A stretch of 35,675 bases of DNA, taken from positions 1-35,675 of the forward strand of contig PFEY01000032.1 in the NCBI GenBank assembly GCA_002783205.1, in the 5' to 3' direction. The DNA is from Rhodobacteraceae bacterium CG17_big_fil_post_rev_8_21_14_2_50_63_15. GTDB taxonomy: Bacteria; Pseudomonadota; Alphaproteobacteria; Rhodobacterales; Rhodobacteraceae. Below are positions 29,431 through 35,675 of this stretch, piece after piece; the stretch's first letter is position 1, and each line of letters begins with the position of its first letter. A model generated the notes under the pieces. The model was not told where the DNA came from. It did not search any database and saw only the letters and a list, made by a program, of their open reading frames with translations. A program made the position numbers and the translations under genes.

Positions 29431-30584
29431 TCCGCGGCACGCGCCCGCTCGCGATGCGCCTCGATCCGGCCCGCCACCCAATCGTGAAAGCAATGCGTCG
29501 GGCTGTCCATCACCGGCGAGAACCGCCCGCCGTCGAAACCGGGGGCGTGGCGGCCGCGCTGCATACCCTCGACGACACAGATGTCCTCCTCGAATACGGC
29601 CCTCCAGAGTTGCGTGTTGCGCGCGCGCAATCCGCCGTCGGTGTCCGCCGCGGCATAATAGAGATGGACATGCTCGAGCGTGCGCTCGGGGCCCTGCGGT
29701 GCGAGAAGGACCGCAAAGGCATGGTCGCGATGCACGCCCAAGAGAACATTGGGATAGACCGACACATATTCGGCCTGTTCGTTCCACTTGCTGCCAACCT
29801 CGGGAAAATCGGGGAAAGTCGCGCCGGTCTTATCGCTTAACTGCCGATAGACCATCGTGCCCTGACCGGAATACTCGCCCGGTCTCTCGATGTGATAGTG
29901 ATCCTCGAGCCGCGAATAGCTGTTGAGGCCGGGATGCACCCAGGGCAGGTGGTAGCTCTCGCAGTAATTCTCGACCGCGAGTTTCCAGTTGGTCGCGACC
30001 GCGAGGCTGAAGGTGCTGTCGGCACCGCCGTGATGGAGGGGTTGCTCGAAATCGGCCCAGCGCCGGAGCAGATCCGCATGCGCCTCCTCAAAGGCCGGCG
30101 CATCGCCCGAGACGTTGATCCAGACCACATCGCGCCAGATATGGCTGCGGATCTCGGACAGGCCCAGTTCGTCGCGGCGGATCGCCTCATGCGTGTTGTG
30201 CCCCGGCCCGCCGACATGGGGCGTGCTGACCAGTGCGCCCTTGGTGGAATAACACCATGAGTGATAGGGACAGCGGATCGCCCCCTCGATCTTGCGCGGT
30301 GCGTTGACCAGGATCATGCCGCGATGACGACAGATGTTCTCAAAGACGCGGACATCGCCGTCCTTGTCGCGCAGAAGCAGGAGCGGCATGCCAAGAAACT
30401 CCAGTGGCTTGGCATCGCCCGGTTCTGGCAGGTCGGCGGCCACCGCCAATCCCACCCATTGAGAAAGAAGCAGCGCGTGCTTTTCCTCCTCGAAAACGGC
30501 AGGATCAATGTAGTGGGCGTTGGGCAGGCCATGGGCGCGCTCGATCGAAGTGCCGACAGTCGAAAGATCAGTGAGAGCGGTCAT
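29427..30584 (-). CDS. Rieske non-heme iron oxygenase, large subunit type
   Basis: 385 residues from the ATG at 30584. Rieske cluster: Cys85-x-His87 (CRHRG) and Cys105-x2-His108 (CPYHSW). Mononuclear iron site: His212 and His217 in NYCESYHLPWVHPG, with Asp334 as probable third ligand. It belongs to the ring-hydroxylating / quaternary-amine demethylase group (GbcA-, CntA- or choline-monooxygenase-like), and the substrate cannot be told. No ferredoxin reductase or beta subunit is nearby; the only partner is the 70-residue downstream protein. It lies after ilvN on the same strand with a 105-base gap. Confidence 0.9.
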   Translation of the reverse strand: MTALTDLSTVGTSIERAHGLPNAHYIDPAVFEEEKHALLLSQWVGLAVAADLPEPGDAKPLEFLGMPLLLLRDKDGDVRVFENICRHRGMILVNAPRKIEGAIRCPYHSWCYSTKGALVSTPHVGGPGHNTHEAIRRDELGLSEIRSHIWRDVVWINVSGDAPAFEEAHADLLRRWADFEQPLHHGGADSTFSLAVATNWKLAVENYCESYHLPWVHPGLNSYSRLEDHYHIERPGEYSGQGTMVYRQLSDKTGATFPDFPEVGSKWNEQAEYVSVYPNVLLGVHRDHAFAVLLAPQGPERTLEHVHLYYAAADTDGGLRARNTQLWRAVFEEDICVVEGMQRGRHAPGFDGGRFSPVMDSPTHCFHDWVAGRIEAHRERARAAE

Positions 30585-30689
30585 CCTGGCGTCTCCGGGT
30601 GGGTGGTTTCGGCCACACAGTGACAGAGGCCACCCCGCGCTCGCGCTCATCTGCGACGCGCGCGCACACCCGAACGACACGCCGCGCGG

Positions 30690-31250
30690 TCAGCGCCCGC
30701 GCGGCAGCGCCGCCACCCCGGTGCGCGCCATTTCCACAAGGCCCAAGGGGCGCATCAACTCGGCAAAGGCGTCGATCTTTTCCGGCGCGCCGGTGATCTC
30801 GAATACGAAACTGCCCAGCGTGCTGTCCACGGCATTGGCGCGAAAGATATCCGCAAGACGCAACGCCTCGACCCGCTTCTCGCCCTCGCCCGCGACCTTC
30901 AGCAGCGCCAGTTCGCGCGCAACACTCGGGCCCTCCACGGTCAGGTCATTGACCTTGTGCACCGGCACGATCCGTCCCAGTTGCGCCTTGATCTGCTCGA
31001 TCACCTGCGGGGTGCCGGTGGTGACGATGGTGATGCGGCTGGTGTGGCCGGTATGATCCACCTCGGCCACGGTCAGGCTGTCGATATTGTAGCCCCGGCC
31101 CGAAAACAGGCCGATCACGCGCGCCAGCACGCCGGGCTCGTTATCGACGATCACGGCCAGCGTGTGGGTCTCCTGCACATCCGAGAAATTCGAGCGCAGG
31201 TTGTAGGCGGAATGCCGGGACGAACCTTTCTTGATGTGCAGGGGGGGCAT
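30690..31250 (-). CDS. ilvN: Acetolactate synthase small (regulatory) subunit
   Basis: 186 residues from the ATG at 31250; upstream in-frame sequence is not part of the family. The N-terminal ACT domain (about 25-100) reads ETHTLAVIVDNEPGVLARVIG, FSGRGYNIDSLTVAEVD, SRITIVTTG. The C-terminal domain contains VHKVNDLTVEGPSVARELALLKV and LADIFRANAVDSTLGSFVFEITG. It activates the catalytic subunit and gives feedback inhibition by valine. The mRNA is led by the attenuator upstream of ilvB. Confidence 0.95.
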   Translation of the reverse strand: MPPLHIKKGSSRHSAYNLRSNFSDVQETHTLAVIVDNEPGVLARVIGLFSGRGYNIDSLTVAEVDHTGHTSRITIVTTGTPQVIEQIKAQLGRIVPVHKVNDLTVEGPSVARELALLKVAGEGEKRVEALRLADIFRANAVDSTLGSFVFEITGAPEKIDAFAELMRPLGLVEMARTGVAALPRGR

Positions 31251-31290
31251 GTGAGTCCAATCCTCTTTGTGGCGCAAAACGGCCGTGGCT

Positions 31291-31317
31291 TCTTCTTGGC
31301 GAAAATACCCTCGGGGG
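31291..31317 (-). repeat. Possible repetitive extragenic motif in the ilvB-ilvN gap
   Basis: On the minus strand CCCCCCGAGGG is followed by TATTTTCGCCAAGAAGAAG. The look of it (GC block, TATTTT-CGCC, AAGAAGAAG) resembles short extragenic elements I recall from roseobacter genomes, but I cannot count copies here. Only one copy is seen in the window. Confidence 0.3.
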
Positions 31318-31321
31318 GTGT

Positions 31322-31340
31322 GGGGGGCAGACGGCCCCCC
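31322..31340 (-). terminator. Hairpin in the ilvB-ilvN gap
   Basis: GGGGGGC (31322-31328), loop AGACG, GCCCCCC (31334-31340), beginning 8 bases after the ilvB stop. No T run follows directly on the minus strand. It may partly end transcription or shield the ilvB mRNA. Confidence 0.45.
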
Positions 31341-31347
31341 ATCGGCC

Positions 31348-33102
31348 TCAGACAAGGACCGCGCCACCCTCTTTGATCGCGTCCTTGGTGCTGACCTCGC
31401 CCAGCAGCATCTTGTTGTGCGGCTCGCCCGACGGGATCATCGGGAAACAGTTCTCGTGCTTTTCCACGAGGCAGTCAAAGATCACCGGCCCGTCATGGGC
31501 AAGCATCTCCATGATCGCCTCGTCGAGATCGCCGGGGTCCTTGCACTGGATGCCCTTGGCACCAAAGGCCTCGGCCAGTTTCACGAAATCGGGCAGCGAT
31601 TCCGACCAGCTTGACGAATAGCGCTCGCCATGCAGCAATTCCTGCCACTGGCGCACCATGCCCAAGCGCTCGTTGTTGAGGATGAACTGCTTGACGGGCA
31701 GATGGTATTGCATCGCGGTGCCCATTTCCTGCATGTTCATCAGCCACGACGCCTCTCCCGCGACGTTGATCACCAGCGCCTCGGGATGGGCGATCTGCAC
31801 CCCGATGGAGGCCGGAAAGCCATAGCCCATGGTGCCAAGGCCGCCAGAGGTCATCCAGCGGTTGGGAGCGTTGAAGCCCAGATACTGCGCCGCCCACATC
31901 TGATGCTGGCCCACTTCGGTGCAGATATAGCGGTCGTGACCCCTGGTCAGCGCCTCGAGCCGCGCCAGCGCGTATTGCGGTTTGATCACCGGGCCTTTCT
32001 GGGTGAATTTCAGGCAATCGACCTTGCGCCACTCGGCAATCTTCGCGGTCCATTTGCCGATCGCCTCGCGGTTGACCTTGCGGCCGCGCGCTGTCCAGAT
32101 CTCCAGCAGGTCCGCCAGCACCGTGGCGATGTCGCCGACGATCGGGATATCGGCGCGGATCACCTTGTTGATCGAGGAGGGATCGATATCGATATGCGCC
32201 TTGATCGACTCGGGGCTGAAGGCATCGACCCGTCCGGTGATCCGGTCATCGAAGCGCGCGCCGATATTGATCATCAGATCGCAGTCATGCATCGCCATGT
32301 TGGCCTCGTAGAGCCCGTGCATCCCCAGCATACCCAGCCAGTGCGGCCCATTGGCTGGATAGGCGCCCAGTCCCATCAGCGTCGAGGTGATCGGAATCCC
32401 GGTTGCCGCGACCAGATCCCGCAAGAGCCGCGTTGCCTCGGGCCCGGAATTGATCACGCCGCCGCCGGTGTAGAAGATCGGACGTTTCGCGGTTTCCATC
32501 GCCGCGACCAGATCGGTGATGGCCTCGATATCGCCCTTGGTCTGGGGTTGGTAATGCGAGACGCGCGCCTTTTGCGGCGGGGTATAGGTCGCGCTGGCAA
32601 ATTGCACGTCCTTTGGGATGTCCACCAGAACCGGGCCGGGACGGCCGGTGGTCGCGACGTGGAACGCCTGATGGATGATGTCCGAAAGGCGCGCGGTATC
32701 GCTCACCAGCCAGTTATGCTTGGTGCAGGGCCGCGTGATGCCGACGGTGTCGGCCTCCTGAAAGGCATCATTGCCAATCATGAAGGTGGGCACCTGCCCC
32801 GTCAGCACGACAAGCGGGATCGAATCCATCAGCGCATCGGTGATGCCCGTCACCGCGTTGGTGGCGCCGGGGCCGGACGTCACCAGCACCACGCCGGGCC
32901 GCCCGGTGGAACGGGCATAACCCTCGGCGGCGTGCACCGCCGCCTGTTCGTGACGCACGAGGATATGACGGATGTCGTTTTGCTGGAAGATCTCGTCATA
33001 GATCGGCAGCACGGCACCGCCGGGATAGCCGAACACGACGTCCACGCCCTGATCCTTGAGGGCCTGAACCACCATTCTCGCTCCGGTCATCTGACGTGTC
33101 AT
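31348..33102 (-). CDS. ilvB: Acetolactate synthase large (catalytic) subunit
   Basis: 584 residues. It condenses two pyruvates, or pyruvate and 2-oxobutyrate, in the first common step of branched-chain amino-acid synthesis, using ThDP and FAD. The catalytic Glu52 (RHEQAAVHAAEGYARSTG), the FAD-contacting GPGATNAVTGI and the ThDP/Mg region VAGEASWLMNMQE ending ILNNERLGM are visible. The Mg motif has GEAS in place of GDGS, which I believe is usual in alphaproteobacterial enzymes. ATG at 33102 with GGAG ten bases before. First structural gene after the ilv attenuator; ilvN follows at 97 bases. Confidence 0.97.
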   Translation of the reverse strand: MTRQMTGARMVVQALKDQGVDVVFGYPGGAVLPIYDEIFQQNDIRHILVRHEQAAVHAAEGYARSTGRPGVVLVTSGPGATNAVTGITDALMDSIPLVVLTGQVPTFMIGNDAFQEADTVGITRPCTKHNWLVSDTARLSDIIHQAFHVATTGRPGPVLVDIPKDVQFASATYTPPQKARVSHYQPQTKGDIEAITDLVAAMETAKRPIFYTGGGVINSGPEATRLLRDLVAATGIPITSTLMGLGAYPANGPHWLGMLGMHGLYEANMAMHDCDLMINIGARFDDRITGRVDAFSPESIKAHIDIDPSSINKVIRADIPIVGDIATVLADLLEIWTARGRKVNREAIGKWTAKIAEWRKVDCLKFTQKGPVIKPQYALARLEALTRGHDRYICTEVGQHQMWAAQYLGFNAPNRWMTSGGLGTMGYGFPASIGVQIAHPEALVINVAGEASWLMNMQEMGTAMQYHLPVKQFILNNERLGMVRQWQELLHGERYSSSWSESLPDFVKLAEAFGAKGIQCKDPGDLDEAIMEMLAHDGPVIFDCLVEKHENCFPMIPSGEPHNKMLLGEVSTKDAIKEGGAVLV

Positions 33103-33142
33103 CTGCGTGTTTCTCCGTATGTGACGTCACTTCAATTCGCAT

Positions 33143-33170
33143 AAAAAAGCCCCCGGTCGGATCCGGGGGC
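33143..33170 (-). terminator. Attenuator terminator of the ilv leader
   Basis: On the minus strand: GCCCCCGG, loop ATCCGA, CCGGGGGC (33170-33149), then TTTTTT (33148-33143). It lies 41 bases upstream of ilvB and 24 bases after the leader peptide stop. An alternative pairing of GGCGCATG (33211-33204, inside the leader ORF) with CATGCGCC (33175-33168) would take the first three bases of the terminator stem. Confidence 0.88.
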
Positions 33171-33194
33171 GCATGAGAGACGGGTATGGTTCCC

Positions 33195-33242
33195 CTACCG
33201 GCCCATGCGCCATTCGCCTACGATGTTGACTAGCCCTGCCAT
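33195..33242 (-). CDS. ilv leader peptide (15 residues)
   Basis: MAGLVNIVGEWRMGR, ATG at 33242, TAG at 33197-33195. AAGGAG (33257-33252) lies nine bases before the ATG. The codons CTA-GTC-AAC-ATC-GTA give Leu, Val, Asn, Ile, Val, including CTA and GTA, which are rarely used in this GC-rich genome. This is the control stretch expected for attenuation by charged branched-chain tRNAs. Absent from automated gene lists because of its size. Confidence 0.85.
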   Translation of the reverse strand: MAGLVNIVGEWRMGR

Positions 33243-33272
33243 TGACAGCGACTCCTTTTCTGCGTGTGCGAG

Positions 33273-33301
33273 ACATTAGGACCGGGTCGGGGGGGCGTCA
33301 A
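33273..33301 (-). promoter_or_regulatory. Promoter of the ilv leader
   Basis: TTGACG (33301-33296), 17-base spacer, TAATGT (33278-33273), close to the sigma-70 consensus at ideal spacing. The expected start is near 33266, giving a transcript whose leader ribosome site begins about 9 bases in. Confidence 0.8.
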
Positions 33302-33422
33302 GGCAGTTTGCTGGATAAAATGTCGCGAAAAGGGGGGATTTCTTTGCATTTATTGCTTAAATGGGGCAGATATGCGCCTTGGGGCCGAAAATGGGTGCGG
33401 CCAAGCGGCATTTTTATCCGCT

Positions 33423-33446
33423 CGGCCCGCGAGATCTCGTGGGCCG
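33423..33446. repeat. Near-perfect 24-bp inverted repeat
   Basis: CGGCCCGCGAGA (33423-33434) and TCTCGTGGGCCG (33435-33446) form a 12-bp palindrome with one mismatch and no spacer. It lies between the ilv promoter and the end of the small membrane protein gene, about 50 bases beyond that stop. Without a T run it is a doubtful terminator; apart from it, 33302-33495 holds nothing I can support. Confidence 0.45.
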
Positions 33447-33495
33447 GGCGGGCGCTGCCTTCTACTGCATCAGATGCTGAACGTGCTGGCGTGAC

Positions 33496-33723
33496 CTACT
33501 TGCGGGGCGATCGCGCGCGCGCTCTGGCCGCGCGCCGCACGCTTGCGACCAGAATGACGATGCTGCCCAGCAGCAGGACGCCGCCCCCGGCGAGCGGCGG
33601 CAGCGCGGTCGCGTCGATCAGCGCCGCCGCGATCAGGACCAGGACCAGAATCGCGGCGGTCAAGCGCGCGTCACTCACGAACATGCTGAAAAGTTCGGAC
33701 AGGACATCTTTCAGAACACTCAT
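33496..33723 (-). CDS. Small membrane protein of unknown function
   Basis: 75 residues from the ATG at 33723, which shares one base with the stop of the upstream gene (TGATG); GGAGGAGG lies just upstream of it. Two hydrophobic helices (TAAILVLVLIAAALIDATAL and VLLLGSIVILVASV) and a basic C-terminus (RRAARARARSPRK). Third gene of the ChrB-N-type / ExxE-permease operon, so it may be a small partner of that permease. No family recognised. Confidence 0.75.
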   Translation of the reverse strand: MSVLKDVLSELFSMFVSDARLTAAILVLVLIAAALIDATALPPLAGGGVLLLGSIVILVASVRRAARARARSPRK

Positions 33724-34469
33724 CACAGCCCTCCTCCGGCCGGTTGCCGCACCATCCGGGCCGAGAGCAGCCCCGCGACCAGAAACAGCGCCGCAAACGC
33801 AAGCAGCGCCAGATCCTGCCCCGGCCAGTCCACGCCCAGGCCCTCACCCGTCCAGAACACGCCAAAGGCGGACAGCATCACCCCCACCCCGAACTTGAGC
33901 GTGTTCTCGGGCACGTTCGACAACGGCCGATGCGCGATGACCCCAATCCCGAGAACCAGCACACAGGCGGCCAGCGCGCCAAGACTGGCGGGCCAGAGCA
34001 GCCCGCGCCCGGCGCCAACGGCGATGACGATGAAGATGACCTCAAGCCCTTCCAGCAGCACCGCCTTGTAGGCGGCGATCCCGGCGATCCAGTCCTGCGA
34101 GGTCTGCTGACGTTTGACCTCTGCGCTCAGCTCTGCGGTTTCGCGGGCAAAGATCGCGCTCTCGTCATGCAGCGGCAACACGCCCGCCGCCCGCAGCGAC
34201 GCCTTGCGCAGCCAGCCGATCCCGAACAAGAGCAAGAGCACCCCGATCACCAGTTGCAGCAGATGGAGCGGCACCCGGTCGAGGAGCGGCCCGAGGATCA
34301 CGACGATAGCCGCCAGCGTCGCCAGCGCCGCCCCGGTTCCCAGCACGGCGGGCCGCCAGCCGCGCAGGGTGGCGACCACCAGCACGATGGTAAAAGCCTC
34401 GACAACCTCGACGACCGAGGCAAGGAAGGCCGCGCCTATGGCAGGGGCGGCAGTGGACCAGTCAAGCAT
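33723..34469 (-). CDS. Polytopic membrane protein with two ExxE motifs (COG4280-like)
   Basis: 248 residues from the ATG at 34469 (AGGAAAGAG before it); a GTG at 34481 would add four. Six to seven helices arranged as two halves. Each half starts with a helix bearing ExxE: Glu21-Val-Val-Glu24 (VVEVVEAFTIVLVVATLRGW) and Glu140-Gly-Leu-Glu143 (LLEGLEVIFIVIAVGAGRG). This resembles the REGLE motifs of FTR1-type iron permeases and the uncharacterised COG4280 family. Between the halves is a charged loop (about 100-128). Likely a cation or metal transporter; substrate unknown. Lies between a ChrB-N-type gene and a small membrane protein gene. Confidence 0.8.
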   Translation of the reverse strand: MLDWSTAAPAIGAAFLASVVEVVEAFTIVLVVATLRGWRPAVLGTGAALATLAAIVVILGPLLDRVPLHLLQLVIGVLLLLFGIGWLRKASLRAAGVLPLHDESAIFARETAELSAEVKRQQTSQDWIAGIAAYKAVLLEGLEVIFIVIAVGAGRGLLWPASLGALAACVLVLGIGVIAHRPLSNVPENTLKFGVGVMLSAFGVFWTGEGLGVDWPGQDLALLAFAALFLVAGLLSARMVRQPAGGGL

Positions 34470-34477
34470 CTCTTTCC

Positions 34478-35020
34478 TCACTTGTTTTCATCATGTGCGT
34501 CAAAGACCCGGCGGGCATAATCGTCCAGAACATTGACACATCCGGCCAGACGCGCCTCGGCCTCGGCTGCGCGGGGCGCGCCATAGAAATCGAGCTTCCG
34601 GATCTTGGCGAGCCAGCCCTGAAGTTTCTTGAGATCAACGTCGTTCTCTTCCAGTTCGGCATAGGTGAAGTGGTTGGCGGCGACTTCCTTGGCCACCTCG
34701 CGTTCGAAATCATCGCATTTGTCGATGAATTCGGCATAGGCCTCATCGCGTTCGGCCTTGAAGCGCGCGAGCACCTTGGCCTCCTGCCCCGGATCGAGGG
34801 CGAGGGTTTCGAGGAGCACCGACTCGCCGTTGGCTTCGAGAACGTCGTTCTCCAGCATCTTCAGGCGGCGGACATGATCCTCCGTTCTGGGCAGGAGGCA
34901 GACTCCGTTTTGCAGGTAGATGGCCCCCATCGCCTTCAGCTTGCGCCAGAGCGAAACCCGCTTGGCCGCCGGTTCTGGCGGCACCTTGTAGGTCAGAAGG
35001 AGCCATGATTCTGGGGTCAT
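34478..35020 (-). CDS. Stand-alone ChrB N-terminal-domain protein
   Basis: 180 residues from the ATG at 35020. MTPESWLLLTYKVPPEPAAKR, then LWRKLKAMGAIYLQNGVCLLP and RTEDHVRRLKMLENDVLEANGES match the N-terminal part of ChrB chromate-resistance regulators. The usual C-terminal ChrB catalytic-like domain is missing, so this is about half the length of full ChrB. The remainder is charged and helical (EEKxxEFIDKCDDFEREVAKEVA type). In chromate operons ChrB senses the oxyanion and controls chrA. No chrA is present; the next genes encode the ExxE membrane protein and a small membrane protein. No ribosome site is clear. Confidence 0.8.
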   Translation of the reverse strand: MTPESWLLLTYKVPPEPAAKRVSLWRKLKAMGAIYLQNGVCLLPRTEDHVRRLKMLENDVLEANGESVLLETLALDPGQEAKVLARFKAERDEAYAEFIDKCDDFEREVAKEVAANHFTYAELEENDVDLKKLQGWLAKIRKLDFYGAPRAAEAEARLAGCVNVLDDYARRVFDAHDENK

Positions 35021-35034
35021 ATGACAGTGATATT

Positions 35035-35048
35035 GTAACCATCGTAAC
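35035..35048. promoter_or_regulatory. Tandem GTAAC repeats upstream of the ChrB-N-type gene
   Basis: GTAAC occurs at 35035-35039 and 35044-35048, nine bases apart. On the minus strand the same stretch contains TACAAT, a -10-like hexamer about 15 bases upstream of the ATG at 35020. Candidate operator/promoter; the elements are short. Confidence 0.3.
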
Positions 35049-35133
35049 ATATCAAGAGACACCATTGCTCGGACCGTGCAGGCGGCGGGCCTCGCAATCT
35101 TCCCCAACCCCGTGCGACCTGCTAGCTAGGGGG

Positions 35134-35675
35134 ATGCTCAGCTATCAGCACCATTACCACGCCGGCAATCCGGCAGATGTCCACAAGCACGCGCTGCTGG
35201 CGTGGATGCTCGACTACCTGATACGCAAGGACAAGCCGCTCAGCTACATCGAGACCCATGCCGGCCGGGGGCTCTATGATCTCGAGGATCCAGCCGCGGT
35301 CAGGACCGGCGAAGCGGCACAGGGGATCGGGCGGCTGGAGCGGGCCTTTGCCGCCGATCACCCCTACCGCCAGCGTCTGGACGAGGTGCGCGCGCGCCAC
35401 GGGGCCACCGCCTATCCCGGCTCTCCTCTCATCGCGGCCCTGAGCCTGCGCGCGATGGACCGCCTCCATCTGGCTGAACTGCATCCCGGCGAACATGCGC
35501 ACCTCACCGACCATCTGGCCCCCTACCACGCCCATGTCCGCCAGCAGGACGGCTATGCCATGGCGCAGGAGATCTGCCCGCCAATCCCGCGCCGCGGCCT
35601 TCTGCTCGCCGATCCCAGCTATGAGGTAAAATCCGAATATGACCTCATTCCCAAGGTGTTTGCCCAGATCGCCCG
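35134..35675 (+). CDS. rlmJ: 23S rRNA (adenine2030-N6)-methyltransferase (partial, 3' end off the window)
   Basis: About 180 N-terminal residues. The start MLSYQHHYHAGNPADVHKHALL is the RlmJ signature; the SAM-binding motif I follows (YIETHAGRGLYDL). The catalytic motif near the end reads LLADPSYEVKSEY, where many RlmJ have DPPY. It methylates A2030 of 23S rRNA as free RNA during ribosome assembly. ATG at 35134 with AGGGGG just upstream. Divergent from the ChrB-N-type operon. The frame is open to the right edge. Confidence 0.93.
   Translation, partial: MLSYQHHYHAGNPADVHKHALLAWMLDYLIRKDKPLSYIETHAGRGLYDLEDPAAVRTGEAAQGIGRLERAFAADHPYRQRLDEVRARHGATAYPGSPLIAALSLRAMDRLHLAELHPGEHAHLTDHLAPYHAHVRQQDGYAMAQEICPPIPRRGLLLADPSYEVKSEYDLIPKVFAQIA

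Follow-up and report, generated by a model that had tools for sequence, protein, structure and literature searches.

A probable ribosome-mediated attenuator before ilvBN in the Rhodobacteraceae and a similar leader cassette before Bcr/CflA-like transporter genes

The ilvBN operon of Rhodobacteraceae bacterium CG17_big_fil_post_rev_8_21_14_2_50_63_15 is preceded by an element which, judging from its sequence, very probably acts as a ribosome-mediated transcription attenuator of the operon. The window, meaning the whole stretch of DNA analysed, comprises 35,675 nucleotides (contig PFEY01000032.1, positions 1 to 35,675). Ribosome-mediated attenuation is a mechanism already known, and the ilvBN case fits the known kind. 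The parts of the element, their conservation, a bias in codon choice and a fixed spacing of control codons, pairing arms, stop codon and terminator could all be demonstrated, and on the basis of genome comparisons the leader is widely conserved in the Rhodobacteraceae, taken here in the wide sense and referred to as the family.

Organisation and conservation of the ilvBN leader

All components of the element are located on the minus strand, and each of those named in the original prediction (promoter, AAGGAG, fifteen-codon ORF, arms, hairpin and T6) was found in its place when the sequence was re-read. The -35 box TTGACG (33301-33296) and the -10 box TAATGT (33278-33273) are separated by a spacer of 17 nt, while the ribosome binding site AAGGAG (33257-33252) lies 9 nt 5' of the ATG of the leader ORF, MAGLVNIVGEWRMGR (33242-33195). 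This ORF consists of fifteen codons and a stop codon at 33197-33195 (ATG GCA GGG CTA GTC AAC ATC GTA GGC GAA TGG CGC ATG GGC CGG TAG), with the regulatory codons 4 to 8, CTA GTC AAC ATC GTA (Leu Val Asn Ile Val), at 33219-33233. Arm 2 (GGCGCATG; 33211-33204), within the final leader codons, shows perfect 8-bp complementarity to arm 3 (CATGCGCC; 33175-33168), of which the last three nucleotides also form the base of the terminator stem, as had been predicted. The intrinsic terminator hairpin, GCCCCCGG-N6-CCGGGGGC (33170-33149), has an 8-bp G+C stem and is followed by a U tract of six T (33148-33143), with 40 nt between the U tract and the ATG of ilvB (33102). The acetolactate synthase large subunit gene ilvB (31348-33102) was identified by NCBIfam models NF006581 (1109.9 bits; cut-off 974) and TIGR00118 (768.6 bits), and its nearest named relatives are in Roseovarius (89 % identity). 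The small subunit gene ilvN (ilvH) is contained in the ORF at 30690-31367 (NF008864; 218.7 bits, residues 66-224), and the gene probably starts at an internal position of the ORF, because the family match begins only at residue 66.

Conservation was assessed in 80 ilvB loci, the best 80 of 590 confirmed matches. An ORF of 10-20 codons ending in [RCHK][MV][GD][RQLK] and followed by a T run was found before ilvB in 76/80 loci, the exceptions being L018 (TAG at codon 11), L046 (shifted variant), L067 (AT-rich MAG) and L075 (101 nt of flank only). A composite search blind to the peptide ending, for 10-20 codons with at least four Leu/Ile/Val in codons 2-10 and a G+C hairpin with T5 located 5-60 nt past the stop codon, likewise retrieved 76/80 ilvB upstream regions (all but L002, L046, L067 and L075), and found no such combination elsewhere in the same 80 loci (a total of 1,037,852 strand-bases, in which 111 terminator-like sites occur). 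The joint occurrence of leader and terminator can thus not be ascribed to chance. Seventy-four of the 76 leaders are exactly 15 codons long, and the other two have 16 codons. Within the same genus a DNA match was obtained in 22/23 genomes and the leader was present in all 22 matched loci, five of which are identical in the leader segment to one of the 80. The expectation that relatives would keep the LVxIV-type codons, the hairpin and the U tract is therefore borne out, both in 76/80 ilvB loci and in the same-genus loci.

A covariance model built from 64 sequences matched 168/198 family genomes (model-building species possibly included), which extends a textbook form of control to most of the sampled family. 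Among the family matches inspected as loci ilvB is located downstream in 33/34, the exception (L120) being a weak second match of 28.8 bits. Genome G335 has two ilvB genes with a model match immediately 5' of each (L134 and L150), and genomes G396 and G436 each have a second model match. The leader of locus L018 stops early, at a TAG in codon 11 (MATLVVIVGT), and keeps undamaged arms and terminator; either this is a natural variant, whose ribosome might leave arm 2 uncovered, or the sequence contains an error.

The promoter, ribosome binding site and terminator were each compared with chance expectation or with relatives. The sequence TTGAC occurs within 90 nt upstream in 76/76 leaders, with 0.093 per 90 nt expected in the same loci, and is accompanied in the relatives by a TAATGT-like -10 box, scored at the most favourable of three spacings, which makes a match more likely. 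In the window the -10 box agrees with TATAAT at three of six positions only, and a generic sigma-70 scan of the window did not list the TTGACG/TAATGT promoter. A Shine-Dalgarno-like motif was observed upstream of the leader ORF in 75/76 relatives. The window terminator is one of seven terminator-like sites in 30000-35675, where shuffled sequences give 3.4. The terminator stem covaries, with a two-sided change in 4/7 pairs among the 64 sequences and a score as high in 0/500 shuffles, and the U tract likewise recurs in the relatives. The isolated leader folds only mildly better than shuffled sequences (z = -1.75), and folding energy alone was set aside as proof of a leader.

Control codons, arm pairing and the proposed switch

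Leu, Ile or Val is encoded at codons 4, 5, 6, 7 and 8 in 72, 73, 73, 70 and 67 of 74 leaders, respectively, with the three amino acids interchanging freely while the class is kept, in leaders that were not picked on this feature. The predicted Leu-Val-Asn-Ile-Val run is present in the window, where four of these five codons specify Leu, Ile or Val and codon 6 specifies Asn. Codons 12, 13 and 14 are CGC, ATG and GGC in 72, 73 and 70 of 74 leaders; the amino acids at these positions formed part of the picking rule and the wobble bases did not, so that the constancy of the latter fits RNA pairing. The use of rare CTA and GTA codons, which had been noted for the window alone, proved general. CTA makes up 52/95 Leu codons in the leaders and 71/3447 in the accompanying ilvB genes (an approximately 26-fold enrichment), and GTA makes up 107/218 Val codons in the leaders and 169/3303 in the ilvB genes (approximately 10-fold). 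This enrichment does not merely reflect A+T richness, since the GTT share of Val codons falls from 16.8 % in the ilvB genes to 1.4 % in the leaders. The leader represents a clean case of codon usage fitting starvation sensing. According to selective tRNA charging theory, the Leu control codon best suited to E. coli is CUA, and the Salmonella leu attenuator, whose leader has a CUA control codon as does the window, became less sensitive when CUA was changed to CUG (PMC1183508).

Over nine pairs in 64 sequences (576 cells), arms 2 and 3 are paired in 99.1 %, with at most 71.6 % in slid registers, and the best arm pairing in the window beats that of shuffled sequences (p = 0.004). The arms are nearly invariant, with a single two-sided change among the 64 sequences (L057, GCACATG/CATGTGC); a second compensated pair (L046, GCGCGTG/CACGCGC) was recognised by inspection outside the alignment. 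With arms this constant, the covariation score lies slightly above shuffles (6/500 as high) and below three slid controls. Adding eleven transporter leaders (see below) gave 92.2 % paired arm cells, a percentage reached by 58/500 shuffles, and no clear covariation signal was gained. Arm covariation was set aside as proof of an antiterminator, as the arms vary too little.

Of 99 leaders (near-copies included) 98 could be scored for the overlap of arm 3 with the terminator, which measures 2 nt in 47 of them, 3 nt in 50 and 4 nt in one. Two shared bases can pair with both arm 2 and the 3' side of the terminator in 63 or all 64 of the sequences. Under constrained folding of the window with arm 2 free, the terminator is favoured by 1.5 kcal/mol (-35.2 vs -33.7 kcal/mol for the antiterminator); with arm 2 masked the terminator is at -20.3 kcal/mol, and before the terminator 3' arm exists the antiterminator is at -24.2 kcal/mol. 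Among 85 sequences, the window being one of them, only 13 have an antiterminator that is better than the terminator or falls short of it by no more than 1 kcal/mol. Of the 8-bp antiterminator originally predicted, the pairing and an overlap of 2-4 nt with the terminator (98 scored of 99 leaders) thus stood, while exclusion of the terminator at equilibrium did not, and the antiterminator is best described as a plausible candidate. There is little incompatibility between the two helices, so that any contest would be confined to the 2-4 pairs adjoining the U tract, and an overlap this unusually small puts to the test what portion of a terminator stem has to be blocked. In the window the U tract is immediately followed by ATGCG (33142-33138), a repeat of the arm-3 motif, and in L057 the repeat follows the changed arm (ATGTGC). 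ATG[CT]G stands right after the T run in 47/99 leaders, and TGCG or TGTG within 9 nt in 60/99; the repeat is thus not general and was rejected as a further pairing partner.

The geometry of these parts fits attenuation, and starvation-induced read-through into ilvBN is therefore the most likely mechanism. We infer that the leader is translated, that transcription terminates at the hairpin and that a switch operates in the direction set out below. RNA polymerase would start approximately 25 nt before the leader ATG, to judge from the -10 box. With charged Leu-, Val- and Ile-tRNAs available, the ribosome would pass codons 4-8, reach the stop codon and cover arm 2 (33211-33204), leaving arm 3 free; the terminator (33170-33149 and U6) could then form and transcription would stop before ilvB. 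Upon a shortage of charged tRNAs the ribosome would stall at CTA, GTC, ATC or GTA and arm 2 would stay free, capturing arm 3 as it emerges and taking the terminator pairs next to the U tract, and with the terminator base taken more polymerases would read through into ilvBN. Taking the ribosomal footprint at its generally accepted size, a ribosome whose A site holds codon 4, 5 or 7 covers none of the eight arm-2 bases, one at codon 8 covers three and one at the stop codon all eight. The blocking of termination by an overlap of 2-4 nt is the least supported step; its effect is taken to be kinetic, because it is costly to close the final terminator pairs within the polymerase.

Twenty of the 30 family genomes in which the model found no match were examined with a looser scan, run with no chance control. 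Before ilvB, a different Leu/Ile/Val-rich leader with terminator was found in 11/20 (for example MDMIVVLIGTRGPRMR, MLAQVLVVIIGERA and MIATLVVIGRIGAREV), a doubtful leader in one (L237) and no leader in 8/20. The best arm pairing in the divergent leaders is of other sequence, with arm 3 located 2-7 nt upstream of the terminator, non-overlapping, in 10/11, and is better than in shuffles at p < 0.05 in only 2/11; the codon cluster thus seems to outlive the arms. A wider ilvB scan covered 30 loci, two from the family and 28 others, including four that are short and unplaced (L177, L185, L188, L193). Among the 24 usable loci outside the family, a strict scan gave a similar ilvB leader in one (L194), and a codon-cluster scan omitting the four short loci gave no further ilvB leader with a convincing terminator; both scans need perfect stems and can miss leaders. 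Another similar leader precedes ilvB in L106. A common ilvB leader across the whole class was rejected on these counts (1/24 usable non-family loci, plus L106).

A similar cassette before transporter genes

When the ilvB covariance model (R1) was applied to 289 genomes drawn from the class, matches were obtained in eleven, four from the family and seven from outside it. Six of the seven non-family matches (L113-L118; 34-74 bits) precede a gene of the MFS transporter type, not ilvB, while the seventh (L119; 27 bits) has neither ilvB nor the transporter downstream. The leaders of L113-L118 read MTVTTVVVGAWRLDR, MHILIVVVGERRLDR, MNPKSVVVVVSRRCMVR, MKLQVDVVVEGCLGR, MSIRIVSQYVWRAVL and the degenerate MYLSNTAGVGARRPGR. 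One transporter protein was compared with NCBIfam and belongs to TIGR00710 (Bcr/CflA; 212.8 bits, cut-off 200.9), the remaining transporters being assigned by similarity or record annotation. We tentatively consider, at somewhat short of an even chance, that one homologous cassette serves two unrelated genes, ilvBN in the family and Bcr/CflA-like transporters elsewhere. The transporters, probably importers, would then be induced by shortage of valine (or of branched-chain amino acids) and serve amino-acid economy, and the Rfam family Atu_C8 would be the terminated leader of the transporter mRNA.

Among 45 transporter homologues 19 have a leader and two a degenerate one; a twentieth candidate (L205) was dropped as spurious, having a long ORF with no Val run. 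Seven of these rows (L116, L117, L217-L221) were fetched for their leader, and the query itself is also leader-bearing; the 38 homologues from the protein search include 13 with a leader and one with a degenerate leader (L200). In the transporter tree the leader-bearing rows fall into two groups, the first with 18 rows (15 with leaders, one degenerate, two without) and the second with leaders in 4/4, and the leader label changes four times vs 14.8 times in shuffles (near-copies included; bootstrap support not fully settled). A Val-rich leader with terminator was observed before the transporter in L116, L156, L157, L159, L160, L162, L198, L206, L217-L221 and L224-L229, and the transporter-leader loci come from several alphaproteobacterial families, with one plasmid record of Burkholderia besides. 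No such leader precedes the homologue in the genome of the window (L164), and 20 of the 69 family transporter matches were inspected as loci. CTA is absent from the transporter leaders and GTA accounts for 23/89 Val codons, so that they share the codon signature of the ilvB leaders only in part.

A relative of the transporter on an Agrobacterium tumefaciens plasmid (L223), which belongs to the larger transporter tree group, is directly preceded by a TPP riboswitch (RF00059; 74.6 bits; L223:1315-1431) in place of the leader, and is a candidate for a thiamine-linked transporter, with multidrug efflux as its annotation. The replacement of one metabolite sensor by another would point to a nutrient transporter, not a drug pump. 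The leader suggests that the Bcr/CflA-like transporter, listed in annotations as a multidrug efflux protein, has a role linked to valine. It provides a testable hint to the substrate of a "multidrug" transporter clade, and as such outweighs the ilvBN result and is the part most likely to surprise a specialist.

With Rfam family Atu_C8 (RF02502, "Rhizobiales sRNA") the window leader can be aligned from one end to the other. The consensus of Atu_C8 is readable as a leader, ATG ATT ATT CTT GTG GTG GGC CCG CGC ATG GGC AGG (MIILVVGPRMGR), and has the same GCGCATGGGC and CATGCGC arms as the window, which scores 21.3 bits against Atu_C8 (E 0.034 in a 181-base search), below the gathering cut-off of 50. 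The two differ in that Atu_C8 has approximately 8 nt between arm 3 and the terminator whereas the window arms overlap the terminator, and in that Atu_C8 precedes the transporter gene and the window element ilvB. Matches above the cut-off were found in 1/190 genomes of the class sample, 6/36 genomes in the family of G130 and 3/13 separately tested loci, with the other ten, including window-type and Roseobacter-type leaders, below it. All nine above-cutoff copies examined, six from the family of G130 and three on plasmids of Rhizobium etli, R. lusitanum and Phyllobacterium, directly precede a homologue of the same Bcr/CflA-like transporter. Atu_C8 copies with a leader ORF before the transporter were observed in L105, L217-L221, L226, L228 and L229. 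The transporter-leader reading, if true, reinterprets an Rfam sRNA family. No report of the transporter leader, or of Atu_C8 as a leader, was found in the literature searched, which included few subscription papers and gives weak evidence of absence; the accessible portions of PMC3738593, PMC2965389, PMC8632094 and PMC10117765 contain none on the transporter leader.

Known attenuators and alternative readings

The leu and ilv attenuators of E. coli and Salmonella share with the window regulatory codons for the pathway's own products, and have longer ORFs and a larger antiterminator-terminator overlap than the window. Among the closest described cases is that of Caulobacter crescentus, like the window an alphaproteobacterial ilvBN with a rho-independent terminator, where a leader with tandem Ile and Val codons is reported to act by attenuation (Tarleton 1994, as cited in PMC4117421). 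An alphaproteobacterial ilvB leader peptide, before the same gene as in the window, was also on record by 2005 (Vitreschak 2004, as cited in PMC1273637). In the unrelated lineage of Corynebacterium, ilvBNC is likewise described as combining a leader or upstream ORF before ilvB with attenuation (PMC11857589, PMC10272879).

The attenuator reading of the ilvB leader, as originally proposed, is supported by conservation of leader, codons and terminator in the relatives. That the leader senses branched-chain tRNAs while the 2:3 hairpin serves as a pause or timing hairpin, with no mutually exclusive pairing, is possible but doubtful. Such a role would accord with a terminator overlap of just 2-4 nt, the preference for the terminator at equilibrium, the lack of overlap in 10/11 divergent family leaders and the approximately 8 nt between arm 3 and the terminator in Rhizobiaceae-type transporter leaders; however, no main-group leader is without overlap (98 scored of 99), and the shared bases pair both ways in 63 or 64/64 sequences.

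An independent sRNA or small-protein gene beside ilvB, with the ilvB promoter after the terminator, is considered to have only a slight chance of being correct: Rfam calls the related Atu_C8 an sRNA and all sub-threshold Rfam matches at the leader are sRNA models, but ilvB follows in 33/34 family matches inspected as loci, the leader codons match the downstream pathway, and in the window the U tract lies only 40 nt from the ilvB start. The occurrence of similar leaders before a Bcr/CflA-like transporter annotated as multidrug efflux could be taken to indicate a stall peptide answering translation inhibitors, not amino acids, yet the free swapping of Leu, Ile and Val at codons 4-8, the skew towards CTA and GTA, the biosynthetic operon targeted in the window and the TPP riboswitch, a metabolite sensor, before a related transporter make this very improbable. 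A riboswitch or T-box binding a metabolite or tRNA directly is suggested by position alone, and can be given next to no weight when the conservation tracks the codons of an ORF; it was rejected, as no Rfam family reaches its gathering score at the leader. The sole gathering-level Rfam match in the window is located away from the ilvB leader, and is the singlet oxygen resistance RNA SorX (RF02784; 12479-12550, minus strand; 54.2 bits, cut-off 46.6).
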